From Paucisalibacillus globulus (GTDB lineage Bacteria > Bacillota > Bacilli > Bacillales > Amphibacillaceae), in the NCBI RefSeq assembly GCF_900184735.1, contig NZ_LT855405.1:1-64000 (forward strand): 64,000 nucleotides of DNA, given 5' to 3'. A model generated the notes under the pieces. That model did no database searches and was not told the DNA's origin. It worked only from the letters and a program-made list of their open reading frames with translations. A program made the position numbers and the translations under genes. Below are positions 8,769 to 31,750 of this stretch, piece after piece. How positions within the stretch are numbered: position 1 is the first letter of the stretch; every line of letters starts with the position of its first letter.

Positions 8769-8850
8769 TTTTGGCAACCAGGCGATCATAGTTTTATTAA
8801 ACCTTAGACCCTTAGCTTTGCGTCCTACCCTTTCAGATAGTTTGCCTTTA
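8769..8850 (-). ncRNA. c-di-GMP-I riboswitch upstream of the LuxR-type regulator
   Basis: On the minus strand the GEMM landmarks occur in order: GGCAAAC, a stem capped by GAAA (TATCTGAAAGGGTA), GGACGCAAAGC, then TCTAAGG, and finally a second stem ending GGTTGCC. These are the hallmarks of the cyclic-di-GMP-I class. The intrinsic terminator at 8727-8752 follows. The transcript would continue into the regulator gene at 8651. Whether ligand turns expression on or off cannot be read without folding. Confidence 0.88.
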
Positions 8851-8996
8851 TCAATTTGTTTGTTATATAACTTTTTTCCTATAGACTATAGTAAACCATA
8901 TCTAGTAAAAAAAGCAACTAAAAATACATAATATAGATTACAACAAAATATGGTAACGAAGGAAGACAGCCAAATTCTATTGATCGTATACTATAT

Positions 8997-12305: not shown

Positions 12306-12326
12306 ATTAGATATCCATATCTATCA

Positions 12327-12405
12327 TTGGTAGCCTGGCAATCATAGTGTAAAAACCTTAGATCCATGGCTTTGCGTCCTTACCTTTCAGTAAGTTTGCC
12401 TTTGT
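12327..12405 (-). ncRNA. c-di-GMP-I riboswitch upstream of motA-motB-mcp
   Basis: Minus strand: GGCAAAC, the stem TTACTGAAAGGTAA with its GAAA tetraloop, GGACGCAAAGC, TCTAAGG, then a second stem ending GGCTACC. The core matches the aptamers at 8.8 and 20.25 kb. The terminator at 12273-12305 follows. Stator production, and hence motility, should respond to c-di-GMP. TAAATTTCC and CCCGAATT further upstream resemble a weak SigD promoter, and TATAAT near 12436 could serve SigA. Confidence 0.92.
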
Positions 12406-12574
12406 CTGTTATGTGGTTGTAACTTTAGACCTATTATATATATCGTACGAATTCGGGATAAGTTGAGAGGAAATTTATAAATGATATAAAGTAAATCCTT
12501 TTAAGTAGTCAATAAAGGTAAGTAATATAAATTTTTTAATACAAATATTTTTTATGTGTTATACTAGAACGAAA

Positions 12575-12588
12575 CAAACATACGTTCT
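12575..12588. promoter_or_regulatory. LexA (DinR)-like box before the endonuclease gene
   Basis: CAAACATACGTTCT matches the Bacillus consensus CGAACRNRYGTTYG at 12 of 14 positions. It lies between a TATACT -10-like hexamer (12560) and the ribosome site of the endonuclease gene. A prediction only. Confidence 0.4.
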
Positions 12589-12611: not shown

Positions 12612-13547
12612 ATGGATAAGGAATGGCTAGATACTGATAATTCTTTCAAAGCAAGAATCATTGGAAAGTTGCTTGGAGATGGTAGTATTACCATACAGAA
12701 AGGGAGGAAACCAAGATTTCAATTTACCCATACATCAACTGATATTGGCTGGAGCAAATATAGTTATAATATGTTAAAAGAATATATTCCATTAAATCCA
12801 CCTAAATTTAAAAAGACCATAGACCCCAGACTAAAGAAAGGTTTTAGTCTTGCATATTCAGTCCAATCAAGAACTTCGCCAATTAACACTTATCTACGCA
12901 CAGAATGGTATAACAACGGCCAAAAAGTGATTCCAAATAATCTGCTTAATCATTTCTTTAATGAAGAAACCCTAGCATGGTGGTATATGGACGATGGTCA
13001 CCTTAAAACACATAATAATAAACCTCAAAAAGTTATTCTCTCAACTGAGGGTTTTACAAAACAAGAAAATATATGGCTTATAGAGTTCTTAAAGGACCGC
13101 TACAATTTACAATTTCGAGGTGATAAGCAGAATCGTATTATTTTATATGATCAATTCCAGATATTACATTTCCTATCTTTTGTTTCACCTTATATGCATA
13201 ATAGTATGTGGAGAAAATTACCGACCAGGTGCGATTTCATACATGAATTACCTAGTAGAAGATCCACTCTATATCTGCCTGAAACAACGCAGTTTACATC
13301 ACCCACAAAAGAAATAAATCTTTTACTGAGTAGTCTTAATTCACTTATTCTAGACTATAAAAATGGAAAGTTTTATGATAAATGGTTGACCCCTGTATTA
13401 TCTCATTCATTAATTAGTTTAAGAGGTTATCAGATAGTTTTATCGAGTAAAGTCTCTAGTAATCTCCAATTTCTTTATGAAACTACTGGACTTACATATA
13501 GTCAGCTAGCTTTTTTATGTATTTTTCTTAAGAATTCGGAATGCTAA
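12612..13547 (+). CDS. Free-standing LAGLIDADG homing endonuclease
   Basis: 311 residues with two LAGLIDADG helices: IIGKLLGDGS near residues 15-24 and LAWWYMDDGH near 120-130, each ending in the acidic catalytic residue. This is a monomeric two-motif enzyme that makes a site-specific double-strand cut. It is not inside an intron. It stands alone on the plus strand, 80 bases from the last exon of the nearest intron-containing flagellin gene. The start at 12612 has GGGAGGAG eight bases upstream. Low GC relative to the motility genes and the isolated orientation suggest acquisition. Probable role: cutting flagellin alleles near the intron site and so spreading the linked introns. The target is not shown by sequence. 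Confidence 0.85.
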   Translation: MDKEWLDTDNSFKARIIGKLLGDGSITIQKGRKPRFQFTHTSTDIGWSKYSYNMLKEYIPLNPPKFKKTIDPRLKKGFSLAYSVQSRTSPINTYLRTEWYNNGQKVIPNNLLNHFFNEETLAWWYMDDGHLKTHNNKPQKVILSTEGFTKQENIWLIEFLKDRYNLQFRGDKQNRIILYDQFQILHFLSFVSPYMHNSMWRKLPTRCDFIHELPSRRSTLYLPETTQFTSPTKEINLLLSSLNSLILDYKNGKFYDKWLTPVLSHSLISLRGYQIVLSSKVSSNLQFLYETTGLTYSQLAFLCIFLKNSEC

Positions 13548-13573: not shown

Positions 13574-13613
13574 TATAAAAAAAGAAAAGACCCTAGAGAA
13601 ACTAGAGCCTTTC
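13574..13613 (-). terminator. Terminator of flagellin gene 1
   Basis: AAAGGCTCTAG pairs with CTAGGGTCTTT and is followed by a T-rich run on the minus strand, just after the exon 2 stop codon. Confidence 0.8.
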
Positions 13614-13626
13614 TAACTGAATAAAA

Positions 13627-13740
13627 TTAACGAAGAAGTTGTAGAACTCCTTGCGGTTGTTGGTTAGCTTGCGCTAACATGCTTTGAGCCGCTTGTTGAA
13701 GAATGTTGTTCTTAGTGAACTCCATCATTTCTTTCGCCAT
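13627..13740 (-). CDS. Flagellin 1, exon 2 (C-terminal D0 helix)
   Basis: 37 codons, [14 protein letters not shown] to GVLQLLR, identical in character to the universal flagellin C-terminus. It is separated from exon 1 by the group I intron. Joined in frame after GAT of exon 1 it restores [12 protein letters not shown], the canonical Bacillus flagellin sequence. It is not an independent gene: there is no ribosome site before its ATG. Confidence 0.88.
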   Translation of the reverse strand: MAKEMMEFTKNNILQQAAQSMLAQANQQPQGVLQLLR

Positions 13741-14108
13741 CGTGCGAACATTTACTTTCATAAATGACCAGACTATATCTTCACCCTCTAGTTATCTAGT
13801 AAGGGCCGGGCACTTCGGATTCAGATGAATATGCGGCTTCACCTTTCACCTACGAATTTCATCACCATTGCATTATGCTTTAGGTGGTCTATTCTAGTCG
13901 TTGAACCTTCTCCAGAGTTTCCTCGTAGGAGCTTGGCTGCTGATTGCCCAATCTTGTCTTTTTTCAAACCTTCACGGTTGCTGTTTCCAGCTACGTTGTG
14001 GTAAGACAAGCTCTAAGGGTTTTCCAGCAATTCACCCGGTCGTAATCGCTAACCGTTACCAGTTAGGACGACTGTGACTGTCACTGCTTAAGCAGCAGCT
14101 AAGTCATA
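13741..14108 (-). mobile_element. Group I intron in flagellin gene 1 (368 nt, no ORF)
   Basis: Read on the minus strand, the four conserved core elements occur in order: P (AATTGCTGGAAAACCC, 14032-14018), Q (AATCAGCAGCCAAGC), R (GTTCAACGACTAGA) and S (AAGATATAGTCT, near 13781-13770). The exon 1 side ends in T (GTGGAT) and the intron ends in G (CGCACG), as group I splicing requires. Splice sites were chosen because they rejoin the flagellin frame. The intron has no endonuclease gene. It probably belongs to the phage-like IA class. Confidence 0.9.
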
Positions 14109-14846
14109 ATCCACGTCACGGATACGTGATTCTGCAGCTGTTAGGTTTTCTGAAGATGCACCTAGGTTGTTAATTGTATGTTCTAGGCGGTTTTGTACTG
14201 CTCCTAATGAAGACCTTTCAGATGATACAGATTTGATAGCTTCATCAATTGCAATTAATTGATTATCAAATGTTTTATTTGCAAAGTCCTCAACATCAAT
14301 ATCAGACATCTTAATCGTAGCAGATCCCAATGCACTTGCTTGCATGTTACCAATATTAAGAGTTAATTGTTGACTTTCATTAGCTCCAATTTGGAAGGTT
14401 AAATCAGTTGCCGTTCCATCAAGTAATTCCTTACCGTTAAATTGTGTACGGTTTGCAATACCATTACCATCAGTAGTTCCTAATTCTTTTACTAATTCAT
14501 CGATTTCATTTTGGATAGCGCTAAGTTCATCATCGCCTTGAGTACCAGTATTACCAGCTTGAACAGTTAATTCACGCATTCTTTGAAGGATAGCATGAGT
14601 TTCATTTAAAGCACCTTCAGCTGTTTGGATTAAAGAAATGCCATCTTGAGCATTTTTAGAAGCCATCTCTAATCCACGGATTTGCCCACGCATTTTTTCA
14701 GAGATAGCTAGACCCGCAGCGTCATCCCCAGCTTTATTGATACGAAGTCCAGAAGATAGCTTTTCTAAAGAATTTTGTGTTGCGCCTTGATTTGCACCAA
14801 GTTGACGGTGTGCGTTAAGTGCTGAAATATTGTGATTGATAATCAT
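14109..14846 (-). CDS. hag: Flagellin 1, exon 1 (spliced to exon 2 at 13627-13740)
   Basis: 246 codons. The N-terminal D0/D1 region (MIINHNISALNAHRQLGANQ) and D1 return helix (AAESRIRDVD) are canonical, with a short variable middle. The spliced product would have 283 residues. Without splicing, the frame runs six residues into the intron (YDLAAA) and stops at 14088, giving a flagellin without its C-terminal D0 helix. Conserved leader: GGAGG before ATG and a CsrA-type hairpin at 14875-14898. Unlike the other three copies I see no SigD-type -10 (GTCGATAT) upstream, so this copy may be expressed differently or depend on its neighbour. Confidence 0.92.
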
Positions 14847-14874
14847 TATATATTACCTCCATGTAATTTCTTTT

Positions 14875-14898
14875 GCGAGTCACATCCCTATGTCTCGC
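14875..14898 (-). promoter_or_regulatory. CsrA-type leader hairpin of flagellin 1
   Basis: GCGAG...GGGATGT...CTCGC on the minus strand presents a GGAUGU loop. Stem pairs change in a compensatory way relative to the other flagellin leaders (GTGAG/CTCAC). A second possible site, ACATGGAGG, overlaps the Shine-Dalgarno. In B. subtilis CsrA represses hag this way. Confidence 0.65.
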
Positions 14899-15053
14899 TT
14901 CTATAACAACTCTAAAAAATTATTATTTAAAAATTCGTTATTATATGCTTGGCCAAAAAAATACTAATTTAATTTATTTTCGTACAATTTTCATTCGAAT
15001 CAATCAATATAAATATGGGAGAATTCAACAAAAATAATATATTAATAAATTAA

Positions 15054-15167
15054 TTAACGAAGTAATTGTAATACTCCTTGTGGCTGTTGATTTGCTTGAG
15101 CCAACATACTTTGAGCTGCTTGAGTTAAGATGTTATTCTTTGTGAATTCCATCATTTCTTTCGCCAT
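15054..15167 (-). CDS. Flagellin 2, exon 2
   Basis: 37 codons, [14 protein letters not shown] to GVLQLLR, the C-terminal D0 helix of flagellin 2 beyond its intron. It differs from exon 2 of gene 1 at one residue (ILTQAA for ILQQAA). No terminator hairpin is obvious after it, unlike the other copies. Confidence 0.88.
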
Positions 15168-15535
15168 CGTGCGAACATTTACTTTCATAAATGACCAGAC
15201 TATATCTTCACCCTCTAGCTATCTAGTAAGGGCCGGGCACTTCGGATTCCGATGAATGTGCGGCTTCATCTTGCACCTACGAATTTCATCACCATTGCAT
15301 TACGCTTTAGGTGGTCTATTCTAGTCGTTGAACCTTCTCCAGAGTTTCCTCGTAGGAGCTTGGCTGCTGATTGCCCAATCTTGCCTTTTTTCAAACCTTC
15401 ACGGTTGCTGTTTCCAGCTACGTTGTGGTGAGACAAGCTCTAAGGGTTTTCCAGCAATTCACCCGGTAGTAATCGCTAACCGTTACCAGTTAGGACGACT
15501 GTGACTGTTACTGCTTAAGCAGCAGCTAAGTCATA
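15168..15535 (-). mobile_element. Group I intron in flagellin gene 2 (368 nt, no ORF)
   Basis: Same insertion point and length as in gene 1, with the same P, Q, R and S core elements and only scattered base differences from intron 1. It ends in G before exon 2 and begins after T of exon 1. Confidence 0.9.
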
Positions 15536-16330
15536 ATCCACGTCACGGATACGTGATTCTGCAGCTGTTAGGTTTTCTGAAGATGCACCTAGGTTGTTAA
15601 TTGTATGTTCTAGGCGGTTTTGTACTGCTCCTAATGATGATCGTTGTGATGAAACCTTCTCAATAGCCGTATCGATTAATTGAATGTCTGCATTAAAATC
15701 AACATCGGCTACAGGAGGATCAACAGTATCGTCAACAAATGCAATATCGGATACTCCTAGTGCAACTGCACTCATATTATCAATATTAATTGACATTTGT
15801 TGCTTTTCATTTGCTCCTATTTGGAAAGTAAGGGAAACAGCAGTAGTAATATCAGTTGTTCCATCGGTACCAGGTGTACCCGCAGTTCCGAACGTACCAT
15901 TTAGTAAAGTCTTACCATTAAACTGTGTACGATCTGAAATACCACTACTAGTACCCATACCACCTAATTCCTCTTTTAAAGCGTCTACCTCATCCTGTAT
16001 AGCTTGTAAATCATCTACATCTTGTGTTCCTGTATTACCAGCCTGAACAGTTAATTCGCGCATACGTTGTAAAATTGCATGAGTTTCATTTAAAGCGCCT
16101 TCTGCAGTTTGGATAAGCGAAATACCGTCTTGAGCATTTTTAGAAGCCATTTCTAATCCACGAATTTGTCCACGCATTTTTTCAGAGATTGCTAGACCTG
16201 CTGCGTCATCTCCAGCTTTGTTGATACGAAGACCTGAAGAAAGTTTTTCTAAAGAGTTTTGAGTTGCACCTGTGTTAACACCTAATTGACGGTGTGCATT
16301 TAATGCAGAAATATTGTGATTGATTATCAT
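15536..16330 (-). CDS. hag: Flagellin 2, exon 1 (spliced to exon 2 at 15054-15167)
   Basis: 265 codons. Conserved flagellin ends (MIINHNISALNAHRQLGVNT, ESRIRDVD) flank a longer variable domain rich in Gly, Thr and Asp (GTAGTPGTDGTTDI, then DDTVDPPVADVD). The spliced product would be 302 residues. A SigD-type promoter (16474-16500), a CsrA-type leader hairpin and a TACATGGAGG ribosome site precede it. Unspliced mRNA would stop at 15515 after six intron-coded residues. Confidence 0.93.
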
Positions 16331-16364
16331 AATTTCCTTACCTCCATGTAATGTAATTTTTTTC

Positions 16365-16388
16365 GTGAGTCACATCCTTGTGTCCCAC
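16365..16388 (-). promoter_or_regulatory. CsrA-type leader hairpin of flagellin 2
   Basis: ACACAAGGATGT on the minus strand matches the CsrA consensus RUACARGGAUGU at 11 of 12 positions and sits in a GTG...CAC hairpin about 35-58 bases upstream of the start. Confidence 0.7.
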
Positions 16389-16473
16389 ACTATAACAACT
16401 CATTTCGGAGTTATTACCTAGCTGATAAATGTTTGGCCAAAACATATATACATCATCATGATGTATACCACTT

Positions 16474-16500
16474 ATATCGACAATATTTTTTATTTATTAA
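16474..16500 (-). promoter_or_regulatory. SigD-type promoter of flagellin 2
   Basis: -10 GTCGATAT (consensus GCCGATAT), 15-base spacer, -35 TTAA (consensus TAAA), on the minus strand. The leader contains the conserved TTTGGCCAAA palindrome. Confidence 0.65.
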
Positions 16501-16510
16501 TACTTCGTTT

Positions 16511-16548
16511 AAAGAAAAAAGAGTTTCCACATTTATGGGAAACTCTTT
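16511..16548 (-). terminator. Terminator of flagellin gene 3
   Basis: GAGTTTCC pairs with GGAAACTC and is followed by TTTTTTC on the minus strand. Confidence 0.88.
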
Positions 16549-16554
16549 ACTTTA

Positions 16555-16668
16555 TTAACGAAGAAGTTGTAAAACTCCTTGAGGTTGTTGATTTGCTTGA
16601 GCCAACATACTTTGAGCCGCTTGAGTTAAGATGTTATTCTTTGTGAATTCCATCATTTCTTTCGCCAT
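16555..16668 (-). CDS. Flagellin 3, exon 2
   Basis: 37 codons encoding the C-terminal D0 helix ([20 protein letters not shown] ... VLQLLR) after the intron of gene 3. Lies inside the near-identical duplicated block shared with gene 4. Confidence 0.88.
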
Positions 16669-17036
16669 CGTGCGAACATTTACTTTCATAAATGACTAGA
16701 CTATATCTTCACCCTCTAGTTTTCTAGTAAGGGCCGGGCACTTCGGATTCAGATGAATTTGCGGCTTCATCTTGCACCTACGAATTTCATCACCATAGCA
16801 TTTTGCATTAGGTGGTCTATTCTAGTCGTTGAACCTTCGCCAGGTTTTCACCACAGGCGCTTGGCTGCTGATTATCCAATCTTCCTTCTTTTAAACCCTT
16901 CACGTCTGCCGTTTCCAGCTGCGTTGTGGGGAACAAAGCTCTAAGGATTTCCCAGCAATTCACCCGGTCGTAATCGCTAACCGTTACCAGTTAGGACGAC
17001 TGTGACTGTTACTGCTTAAGCAGCAGCTAAGTCATA
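16669..17036 (-). mobile_element. Group I intron in flagellin gene 3 (368 nt, no ORF)
   Basis: P element AATTGCTGGGAAATCC, then Q, R and S in order, at the same codon as in the other genes. Virtually identical to the intron of gene 4 and more diverged from introns 1 and 2. Confidence 0.9.
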
Positions 17037-17846
17037 ATCCACGTCACGGATACGTGATTCTGCAGCTGTTAGGTTTTCAGCAGAAGCACCTAGGTTATTA
17101 ATGGTATGTTCTAGGCGGTTTTGTACTGCTCCTAACGATGATCTTTGCTCAGATACCTTAGTAATTGCTCCATCTATAAGAGTTAATTGATCATCAAAAG
17201 CATCTGCTACAGGTGCACCATTACCATCTACAAACGCAGTAACATCTATTACAGCTTTTATTTCAGCTTTAGTAGCAGTTCCGTCTGCAGCTGCCCCAGT
17301 CACTCCAAATAGCGCTGAAGCAGACATATTATCAATATTAATTTCTAGTTGTTGTCCGTCATTAGCACCTATTTGGAATACTAAATTGGCAGTCCCACTA
17401 GCAAAGTCACCAGTTAATAAGTCTTTTCCATTAAACTGTGTTCTGTCAGATATCCCCGAACTACCATCAGAAACTCCACCAAGTTCCTCAACTAACGAAT
17501 CTAATTCATCCTGAATAGCCGATAAATCTTCAGCTTCCTGTGTTCCTGTATTACCTGCTTGCACAGTCAATTCACGCATACGTTGTAAAATTGCATGAGT
17601 TTCATTTAAAGCCCCTTCTGCAGTTTGGATAAGCGAAATACCGTCTTGAGCATTTTTAGAAGCCATTTCTAATCCACGAATTTGTCCACGCATTTTTTCA
17701 GAGATTGCTAGACCTGCTGCGTCATCTCCAGCTTTGTTGATACGAAGACCTGAAGAAAGTTTTTCTAAAGAGTTTTGAGTTGCACCTGTGTTAACACCTA
17801 ATTGACGGTGTGCATTTAATGCAGAAATATTGTGATTGATTATCAT
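17037..17846 (-). CDS. hag: Flagellin 3, exon 1 (spliced to exon 2 at 16555-16668)
   Basis: 270 codons, the longest of the four. Typical N-terminal D0/D1 and C-terminal D1 sequences flank an Ala/Gly/Asp-rich variable region (FGVTGAAADGTATKAEIKAV). The spliced product would be 307 residues. Its first about 90 codons and its leader are nearly identical to those of flagellin 2, which fits recent duplication or gene conversion. SigD-type promoter at 17990-18016. Unspliced message would stop at 17016. Confidence 0.93.
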
Positions 17847-17880
17847 AATTTCCTTACCTCCATGTAATGTAATTTTTTTC

Positions 17881-17904
17881 GTGAGTCACATCCTTGTGTC
17901 CCAC
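17881..17904 (-). promoter_or_regulatory. CsrA-type leader hairpin of flagellin 3
   Basis: Same ACACAAGGATGT hairpin as in flagellin 2, base for base. Confidence 0.7.
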
Positions 17905-17989
17905 ACTATAACAACTCATTTCGGAGTTATTACCTAGCTGATAAATGTTTGGCCAAAACATATATACATCATCATGATGTATACCACTT

Positions 17990-18016
17990 ATATCGACAAT
18001 ATTTTTTATTTATTAA
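17990..18016 (-). promoter_or_regulatory. SigD-type promoter of flagellin 3
   Basis: GTCGATAT, 15-base spacer and TTAA, identical to the flagellin 2 promoter. Confidence 0.65.
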
Positions 18017-18028
18017 TACTTCGTTTAA

Positions 18029-18065
18029 AGAAAAAAAGAGTTTCCACATTTATGGGAAACTCTTT
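18029..18065 (-). terminator. Terminator of flagellin gene 4
   Basis: Same GAGTTTCC/GGAAACTC hairpin and T-run as after flagellin 3. Confidence 0.88.
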
Positions 18066-18071
18066 ACTTTA

Positions 18072-18185
18072 TTAACGAAGAAGTTGTAAAACTCCTTGAG
18101 GTTGTTGATTTGCTTGAGCCAACATACTTTGAGCCGCTTGAGTTAAGATGTTATTCTTTGTGAATTCCATCATTTCTTTTGCCAT
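18072..18185 (-). CDS. Flagellin 4, exon 2
   Basis: 37 codons of the C-terminal D0 helix, starting ATGGCAAAAGAA at the 3' splice site. Differs from exon 2 of gene 3 by a silent base near the junction. Confidence 0.88.
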
Positions 18186-18553
18186 CGTGCGAACATTTAC
18201 TTTCATAAATGACTAGACTATATCTTCACCCTCTAGTTTTCTAGTAAGGGCCGGGCACTTCGGATTCAGATGAATTTGCGGCTTCATCTTGCACCTACGA
18301 ATTTCATCACCATAGCATTTTGCATTAGGTGGTCTATTCTAGTCGTTGAACCTTCGCCAGGTTTTCACCACAGGCGCTTGGCTGCTGATTATCCAATCTT
18401 CCTTCTTTTAAACCCTTCACGTCTGCCGTTTCCAGCTGCGTTGTGGGGAACAAAGCTCTAAGGATTTCCCAGCAATTCACCCGGTCGTAATCGCTAACCG
18501 TTACCAGTTAGGACGACTGTGACTGTTACTGCTTAAGCAGCAGCTAAGTCATA
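18186..18553 (-). mobile_element. Group I intron in flagellin gene 4 (368 nt, no ORF)
   Basis: Same site, length and P-Q-R-S order as the other three. Practically identical to intron 3. Confidence 0.9.
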
Positions 18554-19315
18554 ATCCACGTCACGGATACGTGATTCTGCAGCTGTTAGGTTTTCTGAAG
18601 ATGCACCTAGGTTATTAATGGTATGTTCTAGGCGGTTTTGTACCGCTCCCAATGAAGACCTTTCAGATGATACAGATTTGATAGCCGCATCAATTGATTT
18701 CAATGATGCATCGAAGCCTGTTGTTGCGTTATCAAAACCAGCAGTAGTTGAGAATAGCTCGACGTCAATAGAATTTACTGTATGACCAGCTGTTCCTAAA
18801 TTACTTGCTTGCATATCATTTATTGTTATGCTTAATTGTTGACCTTCATTTGCTCCAATTTGGAAAGTAAGTGCTCCTGCTGAACCATCAAGTAAGTTCT
18901 TTCCATTGAATTGTGTTCTATTAGCAATACCATTTCCATTTGCGGTCCCAAGTTCATTAACTAAATTGTCAATTTCATCCTGAATAGCTTTTAATTCATC
19001 TCCACCTTGAGTACCAGTATTACCAGCTTGTACAGTGAGTTCACGCATACGCTGTAAAATTGCATGAGTTTCATTTAAAGCACCTTCAGCAGTTTGTATT
19101 AATGAAATTCCGTCTTGTGCATTCTTCGAAGCCATTTCTAACCCGCGGATTTGTCCACGCATTTTTTCAGAGATTGCTAGACCCGCAGCGTCATCTCCTG
19201 CTTTGTTAATACGAAGACCTGAAGAAAGTTTTTCTAAAGAATTTTGAGTTGCACCAGTGTTAACGCCTAATTGACGGTGTGCGTTAAGTGCTGAAATATT
19301 GTGATTGATAATCAT
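18554..19315 (-). CDS. hag: Flagellin 4, exon 1 (spliced to exon 2 at 18072-18185)
   Basis: 254 codons with canonical flagellin ends and a short variable domain (SAGALTFQIGANEGQQLSIT, then FSTTAGFDNATTGFDASL). The spliced product would be 291 residues. Its variable part is closer to flagellin 1 than to 2 or 3. It is the most upstream of the four, with its own SigD-type promoter (TAAA, 14 bases, GTCGATAT) and CsrA-type hairpin. Unspliced message stops at 18533. Confidence 0.93.
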
Positions 19316-20207: not shown

Positions 20208-20290
20208 TTCGGTAGCTAGGCTGCCATAACAATAGTGCTTTAGGCCCTTGGCTTTGCGTCCTTACCTTTCAGTAAGTTTGCCATTTTCGG
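20208..20290 (-). ncRNA. c-di-GMP-I riboswitch upstream of the PilZ gene
   Basis: Minus strand: GGCAAAC, TTACTGAAAGGTAA (GAAA-capped stem), GGACGCAAAGC, CCTAAAG, then a stem ending GCAGCCTAGCTACCG. A TATAAT -10 box (20313-20318) precedes it. An obvious intrinsic terminator follows, so control is at transcription termination. Confidence 0.93.
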
Positions 20291-20391
20291 TAAAACCTAT
20301 TTATTTAGTGCCATTATACTATAAATATTTCCATAATTCGACAAAATTTGATAAGAAAGTATTAATATTTTTCATTATTTAAATTTCGCCA

Positions 20392-24948: not shown

Positions 24949-25086
24949 GAAAACCGAGTGGCGGTAACCACTCGGTAGTAACAATTATAAACCGCATAAA
25001 GAGCGGTTGACCTCGGGAAAAGCATTATGTATAGTCTAGGATGGAAATAACCGCCACATCCTTTGGTCAGGGGGCGGTTATTTTCT
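24949..25086 (+). ncRNA. Type I antitoxin RNA, copy A
   Basis: Begins after an extended -10 promoter (TGATATAAT, 24933-24941). Opens with the strong hairpin CCGAGTGG/CCACTCGG, then AACCGC/GCGGTT, and ends at the terminator TAACCGCC/GGCGGTTATTTT, which overlaps the last codons of the convergent toxin gene. It overlaps the toxin mRNA 3' end and carries a GCGGTTGACC segment also found in the toxin leader. The same layout recurs at 28.2 and 31.4 kb. Assigned as antitoxin by arrangement. Confidence 0.8.
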
Positions 25087-25182
25087 GTTTATAAAGACGA
25101 TTACCGTTACAACCAGGGTTATAGCTGAAATTAAAGCAATATTGTATTGTACCAATAAGCTTAACGCCTCGTAAATCGTCAT
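25078..25182 (-). CDS. Holin-like type I toxin, copy A (34 aa)
   Basis: 34-residue peptide, MTIYEALSLLVQY then a hydrophobic helix, ending VIVFINRK. Size, single membrane helix and basic tail match the Bacillus holin-like (Hol_Tox/TxpA/BsrG-like) toxins, which damage the membrane when made in excess. GGGAGG lies seven bases before ATG but is buried in a hairpin with CCATCTCC, and GGGCGGTT near the 5' end can pair with AACCGCCCC after the stop. Both are known ways of keeping such mRNAs silent. Antisense RNA converges on the 3' end. Confidence 0.82.
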   Translation of the reverse strand: MTIYEALSLLVQYNIALISAITLVVTVIVFINRK

Positions 25183-25275
25183 GTTACCACCTCCCTTAAA
25201 AGGAGATGGTCAACCGCCCACCATGCTTATATAATTGTTATCTTAATTGTAACACTGTTAATCGCCAGTTATTTA

Positions 25276-25289
25276 AGAACAAACGTTCT
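25276..25289. promoter_or_regulatory. LexA (DinR)-like box upstream of toxin A
   Basis: AGAACAAACGTTCT contains the exact core GAAC-N4-GTTC and matches CGAACRNRYGTTYG at 12 of 14 positions. Centre is about 100 bases upstream of the toxin start. The same offset is seen in copy C. The remaining gene-free sequence to 25500 shows nothing else I can support. Confidence 0.45.
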
Positions 25290-31411: not shown

Positions 31412-31552
31412 AGAAAACCGAGTGGCTGCAACCACCCGGCAAACACAATTACAAACCGCATAAAGAGCGGTTGACCTCGGAAAAAGCATTATGTATATTC
31501 TAAGATGGGAATAACCGCCACATCCTTTGGTCAAGTGGGGCGGTTATTTTCT
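31412..31552 (+). ncRNA. Type I antitoxin RNA, copy C
   Basis: Extended -10 TGCTATAAT (31397-31405). First hairpin CCGAGTGG/CCACCCGG carries one mismatch; then AACCGC/GCGGTT and the terminator TAACCGCC/GGCGGTTATTTT overlapping the toxin end. Same layout as copy A. Confidence 0.8.
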
Positions 31553-31648
31553 ATTTAAAATGACGATCAGAGTTACTATCAATGTCAAAGTCGCAATAAA
31601 TGCTACAATAACTTGTACTGATAGAGTTAGTGCTTCGAAAATCGTCAT
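31544..31648 (-). CDS. Holin-like type I toxin, copy C (34 aa)
   Basis: 34 residues, MTIFEALTLSVQV then a hydrophobic helix ending LIVILNRK. Same length, first five residues bar one, and tail as toxin A, with a changed helix. AGGAGG lies before ATG and pairs with an upstream CATCTCCTT (CATCTCC/AGGAGGTG), hiding the ribosome site. The antisense RNA converges on its 3' end. Confidence 0.82.
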   Translation of the reverse strand: MTIFEALTLSVQVIVAFIATLTLIVTLIVILNRK

Positions 31649-31736
31649 ATTACCACCTCCTTTTAAAGGAGATGATCAACCGCCCACCATGCTTATATAA
31701 TTGCTATTTTTATTATAGTATATTACCAATCTGACA

Positions 31737-31750
31737 AGAACATACATTCT
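31737..31750. promoter_or_regulatory. LexA (DinR)-like box upstream of toxin C
   Basis: AGAACATACATTCT matches CGAACRNRYGTTYG at 11 of 14 positions and sits about 95 bases from the toxin start, as in copy A. On the minus strand it abuts TTGTCA, a possible -35. Confidence 0.35.

Follow-up and report, generated by a model that had tools for sequence, protein, structure and literature searches.

Endonuclease-less group I introns in four tandem flagellin genes of Paucisalibacillus globulus and an adjoining LAGLIDADG gene: a likely case of trans homing on a bacterial chromosome

In a stretch of 64,000 nucleotides (nt) from Paucisalibacillus globulus (Bacillales; Amphibacillaceae; contig NZ_LT855405.1, positions 1 to 64,000 of the forward strand; hereafter the window), we found that each of four tandem flagellin genes on the minus strand is interrupted by a group I intron of 368 nt, always at the same codon junction, between GAT and ATG, and that a free-standing gene for a LAGLIDADG protein, here called LAG-A, lies directly downstream of the array and faces it in convergent orientation. 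We consider it likely that this arrangement arose by collaborative, or trans, homing on a bacterial chromosome, in which an external LAGLIDADG enzyme, encoded by a gene probably repressed by LexA, would have placed introns that lack an endonuclease gene of their own. Two features expected of trans homing were found side by side, namely an intron without an endonuclease gene and a free-standing endonuclease gene beside the gene that bears the intron.

Group I introns in the flagellin genes

The covariance model Intron_gpI (RF00028), a search that the original prediction from the DNA letters had suggested, recovered all four introns on the minus strand with 72.9-80.2 bits against a gathering score of 50 and over the full model length (cmscan spans 13749-14103, 15176-15545, 16677-17046, and 18194-18563), while an Rfam search of the genome gave no group I introns beyond these four. 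Exon mapping bore out the prediction that each flagellin is interrupted at the same codon, and it reproduced the predicted intron boundaries to the nucleotide (Table 1). When read without splicing, every exon 1 ends early in YDLAAA and a stop, with loss of the last 37 residues, which are encoded by a 37-codon exon 2 that begins with MAKEMMEF in every copy; the predicted early stop and displaced C-terminal part also agree with the Pfam domain Flagellin_C, which is divided between exons 1 and 2 at about model position 51-55 in all four genes. Pseudogenes or frameshifts were rejected given the exact 368-nt inserts, the single codon, and the ribozyme core. The inserts are group I introns, which from their sequence are expected to splice, and flagellin gene models that ignore them end early, without the last helix. 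The longest reading frame within them encodes 63 amino acids (aa), so the introns themselves encode no endonuclease.

The window genome (3.92 Mb in 23 contigs, estimated completeness 99.97%) contains nine Flagellin_C matches, eight of which are the halves of the four array genes. The ninth, at C1:75091, was rejected as an intron-less flagellin, being FlgL by TIGR02550. An intron-less copy able to supply the C-terminus, named by the original prediction as the observation that would speak against it, was found nowhere in a search of these 23 contigs. As no other flagellin was found in the genome, every flagellin would need splicing. This full occupancy suits a reading in which the host uses the introns to switch flagellin production, with temperature as one possible cue, and the endonuclease is incidental, a reading that is compatible with trans homing. 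Temperature-dependent splicing is attributed to thermophile flagellin introns (Hayakawa and Ishizuka 2012, as cited in PMC4853749), and three cyclic di-GMP (c-di-GMP) riboswitches occur among the surrounding motility genes; a cmscan of the window, however, placed no Rfam regulatory element inside the four introns, and the presence and absence of the introns across species resembles the turnover of a mobile element. We regard a host switch as rather improbable.

Sequence identity changes abruptly along the array. Between copies 1 and 2, identity is 97.3% in the intron but 81.6% in the second exon; between copies 3 and 4, the two introns are identical, whereas the 150 nt of exon before them agree at 80.7%. 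These contrasts indicate that, besides tandem duplication, there were conversion tracts at or beside the intron. The first 207 nt of the gene do not differ between copies 2 and 3, and the 200 nt upstream are 99% identical. Within this genome, the introns probably spread to four copies mainly by tandem duplication and local gene conversion.

Among 159 genomes of the family, 77 had a group I intron match at E <= 0.001. We sorted 123 matches by exon context (122 over the cut-off and one below, with three of the four window matches omitted as known) and obtained 34 at site A, the window codon; 34 at site C, a second flagellin site near the C-terminus; 16 at site B, near residue 69; and 39 elsewhere, one of which is a decayed site C and most of which lie in what we take, from their motifs, to be ribonucleotide-reductase-like frames. 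Site A was occupied in at least 32 of the 159 genomes, a count that may miss low-scoring introns since 24 weaker matches and unlisted ones stand outside the sorting. With 23 wider-order genomes added and G099 omitted for its unmatched first exon, the site-A set comprised 63 introns from 54 genomes, and U (T in DNA) at position -1, a terminal G, and an early in-frame stop were each present in 63 of 63. Across 50 aligned site-A introns, double compensatory changes occurred in 47 of 100 predicted pairs, and all 50 had a U.G pair at the 5' splice site. The original prediction had called four intron-bearing paralogues unusual: four is indeed the maximum seen, but multiple copies are not unique to this genome, as G347 has three and G301, G254, G021, and G075 have two each. 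In hand-picked cross-family pairs, introns were 92-94% identical at 89-91% RpoB identity, whereas those of the same-genus pair G065/G069 were 83% identical, so that picked pairs from different families share more similar introns than some pairs within a genus.

Introns in flagellin genes are a known kind of element and common in this order, not rare. For thermophilic Bacillaceae, PMC3984707 and PMC4853749 cite flagellin genes with group I introns (Hayakawa and Ishizuka 2009, 2012), and the latter paper reports subgroup IA2 for other flagellin introns. The window introns resemble those, as cited there, in being group I introns in a flagellin gene of the same broad bacterial group, and differ in that four paralogues are occupied, that their site is one of three, and that a free-standing endonuclease gene is linked to them.

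The other two sites show features of their own. In site-C introns (e.g., L119, L127, and L104), read-through into the intron mimics the last exon in 32 of 33 genes examined, with 98% amino-acid identity to the true last exon over 9 residues and a codon agreement of only 38%, which indicates that an unspliced message would still give full-length flagellin, unlike at site A. At site B, between residues 69 and 70, the 16 matches represent an intron of about 280 nt; G149, G093, and G054, which have an intron at this flagellin site and at neither of the others, gave no match to either of the two endonuclease clades described below at the thresholds used. A c-di-GMP aptamer within the window introns was considered and rejected, as Rfam places all three aptamers elsewhere: the c-di-GMP-I riboswitches at 8770-8856, 12326-12410, and 20208-20292 precede a LuxR-type regulator gene, motAB, and a PilZ-domain gene, respectively.

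The adjoining endonuclease and its linkage to the intron site

While the original prediction read the introns correctly, it overlooked the adjoining endonuclease gene. A profile of 31 homologues of LAG-A matches I-SceI, itself of LAGLIDADG_2 (structures 1r7m, 3ool, and 3oor), with E 4.5e-24 at profile positions 6-206, covering most of the I-SceI chain, and the window protein has two LAGLIDADG-type motifs in one chain, GKLLGDG and WWYMDDG. Among the 31 homologues, D127 and D128 are invariant, LLGD at 20-23 is nearly so, and D23 is present in at least 90%. In contrast to I-SceI, LAG-A is encoded outside any intron and has about 105 extra C-terminal residues (13230-13544) beyond the I-SceI core, for which no Pfam match was obtained. 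We interpret LAG-A as an I-SceI-type LAGLIDADG homing endonuclease and the putative cutter of the flagellin site. A recent origin from phages or plasmids was rejected, since nine phage records matched at 23-31% identity over 48-61% of the query and two plasmid records at 27-31% over 60-65%. The genes of G011 and of G096, with which the window genome shares its genus, are not broken, as the stops reported for them sit at the gene end.

A vertical history would explain the locus differently: one intron-bearing flagellin was duplicated in tandem three times, and the LAGLIDADG neighbor is a decaying remnant that no longer has a role. The identical introns 3 and 4 and the shared 5' parts of copies 2 and 3 are what such a history would leave, and broken endonuclease copies do occur in G016, G193, G240, G257, and G341; yet the dN/dS of the endonuclease, 0.25-0.35 in three close pairs, points together with the conserved motif residues to selection on the protein, the contrast between introns 1 and 2 and their second exons calls for local conversion, and the similarity of introns across families is likewise at odds with purely vertical descent. 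We judge this history unlikely.

Across genomes, the endonuclease and the intron site are linked. Relatives of LAG-A were present in 16 of 159 family genomes and 32 of 397 order genomes, together 46 genomes as two were counted in both, and in 38 of these 46 the flagellin region that was fetched contained a site-A intron. As for the remainder, in G104, G257, and G341 the site is empty and the endonuclease is broken or a fragment, no flagellin was found in the region of G527, G381, and G186 (the last two being weak matches), and the loci of G170 and G188 run to a contig end. Within the family, the site-A intron occurred in 15 of 16 LAG-A genomes versus 17 of 143 others (Fisher p 2e-11), and in the order search in the fetched region of 23 of 30 new LAG-A genomes. 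LAG-A and flagellin were convergent in 41 of 42 loci with a flagellin in the region, at a median gap of 170 nt and within 500 nt in 29 of them (rows below 80 bits dropped; the farthest, G065, at 6.3 kb). A scan of named genomes returned eight LAG-A relatives, several identical with genomes already in the set; six uncut loci had a group I intron within 1.6 kb on the opposite strand (Oceanobacillus halophilus, O. luteolus, O. oncorhynchi, Ornithinibacillus caprae, Lentibacillus populi, and Rossellomorea aquimaris), and two Ornithinibacillus gellani loci showed endonuclease pieces at contig ends and no intron match.

The endonucleases fall into clades that follow the site. Ten family genomes, each with an intron match at site C, contain a second clade, LAG-C, although one sequence is a short fragment and several are broken; the clade-C match in G063 is weak (29%). 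In the family, genomes with an endonuclease and site A without a site-C match had clade A in 9 of 9 cases (one of them, G058, has a site-C-like remnant that Rfam does not recognize), and those with site C only had clade C in 5 of 5, two of them broken (p 0.0005). Such a match is expected either from target recognition or from an intron-specific helper.

The exons around the site carry a footprint. With one gene counted per genome and state, and the divergent flagellin-like genes of G040 and G125 dropped, mean codon agreement was 0.75 among intron-bearing versus 0.53 among empty genes at codons -5 to -1, and 0.94 versus 0.71 at codons 0 to +4; farther out it was 0.49-0.61 versus 0.47-0.54 beyond -10 and 0.56 versus 0.60 beyond +10. 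GAC at codon -3 was present in 54 of 54 intron-bearing and 18 of 26 empty genes (p 5e-5) and GCG at +1 in 52 of 54 versus 18 of 26 (p 0.0015), while GAA at +3 did not differ significantly (52/54 versus 22/26; p 0.08). This uniformity of synonymous codons near the site fits co-conversion with the intron or a required target sequence.

LexA-like boxes and the weighing of trans homing

Upstream of LAG-A, a LexA-like box, AAACATACGTTC, is positioned between a TATACT hexamer and the start codon. Across relatives, the dyad GAACnnnnGTTC was found exactly before 16 of 40 intact endonuclease genes and with at most one mismatch before 33 of 40 (only unbroken genes encoding 280 aa or more were counted, with start codons set by rule). 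The corresponding counts were 2 and 17 of 384 control open reading frames taken from these loci (150 aa or longer, not necessarily genes; Fisher 8e-30 for at most one mismatch, kinship uncorrected), and the rates in 2000 dinucleotide shuffles were 0.25% and 2.85%. PMC2248561 gives GAACn4GTTC as the core of the Firmicutes LexA box, and the dyad of the LexA/SOS regulon, as set out in that paper, is the same as that before most intact endonuclease genes and before this genome's lexA; among 15 of the 25 exact dyad places of the genome that were examined, one lies between lexA and a resolvase gene and another before a Y-family polymerase gene. The endonuclease gene is probably gated by DNA damage through LexA.

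LexA-like boxes also occur next to other genes here. Two in the window, at 25277-25288 (exact) and 31738-31749 (one mismatch), precede two type I toxin-antitoxin RNAs of the BsrG type (24953-25238 and 31418-31704) by about 34-39 nt, and at L264 (G000:C1:64276) an exact dyad stands 95 nt before a KwaB-like defence gene, a Kiwa-type gene that may be damage-inducible.

We propose that the introns, or their ancestors, were placed at the conserved flagellin codon junction by the endonuclease of the convergent downstream gene. The enzyme would recognize the uninterrupted exon junction around GAT and ATG and cut the empty allele, and repair of the break would copy the intron with flanking exon sequence from an occupied copy, which itself no longer contains the target. 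With LexA repressing the endonuclease gene, a break at an empty site would raise the enzyme dose, and once all copies were filled the gene would fall silent again. Whether such a cycle, in which cutting triggers the SOS response and derepresses the endonuclease until every flagellin is filled, operates across Bacillales with a separate clade for each site and exchangeable partners, is in our estimation an even call.

Several observations weigh against trans homing by LAG-A or weaken its support. No LAG-A match was obtained in 17 of the 32 family genomes with a site-A intron; in G480, an intact endonuclease lies nearest to an empty, sequence-variant site (its intron is in another copy, and it is counted among the 38); and in G527, an intact endonuclease has no flagellin found within 17 kb. 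The genomes are related, and the Fisher values therefore overstate independence. The distances of endonuclease and intron showed no correlation once RpoB was removed (partial -0.02; 1076 of 2000 permutations as high; 30 genomes). This distance test did not support a tight cassette of intron and endonuclease, and indicates that the two were not inherited as one unit but are loosely coupled, with partners that seem to have been exchanged. The box in the window alone is not beyond chance, with 18 such boxes found versus 19.8 expected in the window, and the exact dyad, at 25 places genome-wide, is not more frequent than in a backward-read control (33). Finally, splicing pairs could account for part of the footprint, and certainly do for T at -1; in addition, intron-bearing and empty genes differ at codons -14 and -13.

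That the protein clade matches the intron site could also mean that LAG-A is a maturase or RNA chaperone, linked to the introns by a need for splicing. The site-A genomes without a LAG-A match, together with the broken LAG-A genes that lie beside site-A introns in G016, G193, and G240, make such a helper less likely, and a helper needed for splicing at all times would hardly be expected to have a LexA-type box; we consider this reading very unlikely. Trans homing by an external endonuclease remains our preferred explanation.

Table 1. Positions of the flagellin exons, introns, endonuclease gene, and nearby signals in the window
Feature	Position	Strand	Evidence
Promoter-like site, TG before TATACT (extended -10), upstream of LexA-like box	12536..12565	+	Consensus scan only; no commoner than in shuffles
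LexA-like box AAACATACGTTC, one mismatch to GAACNNNNGTTC, before endonuclease gene	12576..12587	+	Significant across relatives, not alone in window
Free-standing LAGLIDADG endonuclease gene LAG-A, 311 aa	12612..13547	+	PF03161 (LAGLIDADG_2), E 9.4e-31
Terminator-like stem, between convergent flagellin array and endonuclease gene	13585..13613	-	Consensus scan only
Flagellin copy 1 exon 2	13627..13740	-	Flagellin_C search
Group I intron, copy 1	13741..14108	-	RF00028, 78.6 bits
Flagellin copy 1 exon 1	14109..14846	-	Reading frame, Flagellin_C search
Flagellin copy 2 exon 2	15054..15167	-	Flagellin_C search
Group I intron, copy 2	15168..15535	-	RF00028, 80.2 bits
Flagellin copy 2 exon 1	15536..16330	-	Reading frame, Flagellin_C search
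Flagellin copy 3 exon 2	16555..16668	-	Flagellin_C search
Group I intron, copy 3	16669..17036	-	RF00028, 72.9 bits
Flagellin copy 3 exon 1	17037..17846	-	Reading frame, Flagellin_C search
Flagellin copy 4 exon 2 (37 codons + stop)	18072..18185	-	Flagellin_C positions 51-86
Group I intron, copy 4	18186..18553	-	RF00028, 72.9 bits; 368/368 identical to copy 3 intron
Flagellin copy 4 exon 1 (254 aa)	18554..19315	-	Flagellin_N and N-half of Flagellin_C; NCBIfam flagellin Hag

Collaborative homing beyond phages

Flagellin introns and collaborative homing are each already known, the latter being described, in the sources we drew on, for a few phages. The window resembles the phage systems in pairing an endonuclease-less group I intron with a separate, adjoining endonuclease gene whose product is expected to cut the insertion site. 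It differs from them in its bacterial chromosome, its LAGLIDADG enzyme (F-CphI of the phage system is given as EndoVII-like in PMC6083498), its cellular motility gene, its occurrence in many species, and its LexA-like boxes, and in that cutting is here a prediction. Among the literature matches listed, in a search that left subscription papers mostly outside, we found none that joins flagellin introns with a linked homing endonuclease gene, and none, with regard to the LexA/SOS regulon, on a homing endonuclease under LexA control.

Overall, the adjoining endonuclease appears to drive the spread of these introns from one flagellin gene to another and from species to species. The system provides a widespread candidate for collaborative homing in bacterial chromosomes, with most of its natural states present: an intron with an intact endonuclease, an intron with a broken one (G016, G193, and G240), an intron alone, an empty site with a broken endonuclease (G257 and G341), and a variant empty site with an intact one (G480). 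This makes it testable how endonuclease-less introns and separate endonucleases come to share one target, and whether a connection exists between homing endonucleases and the damage response of their host.

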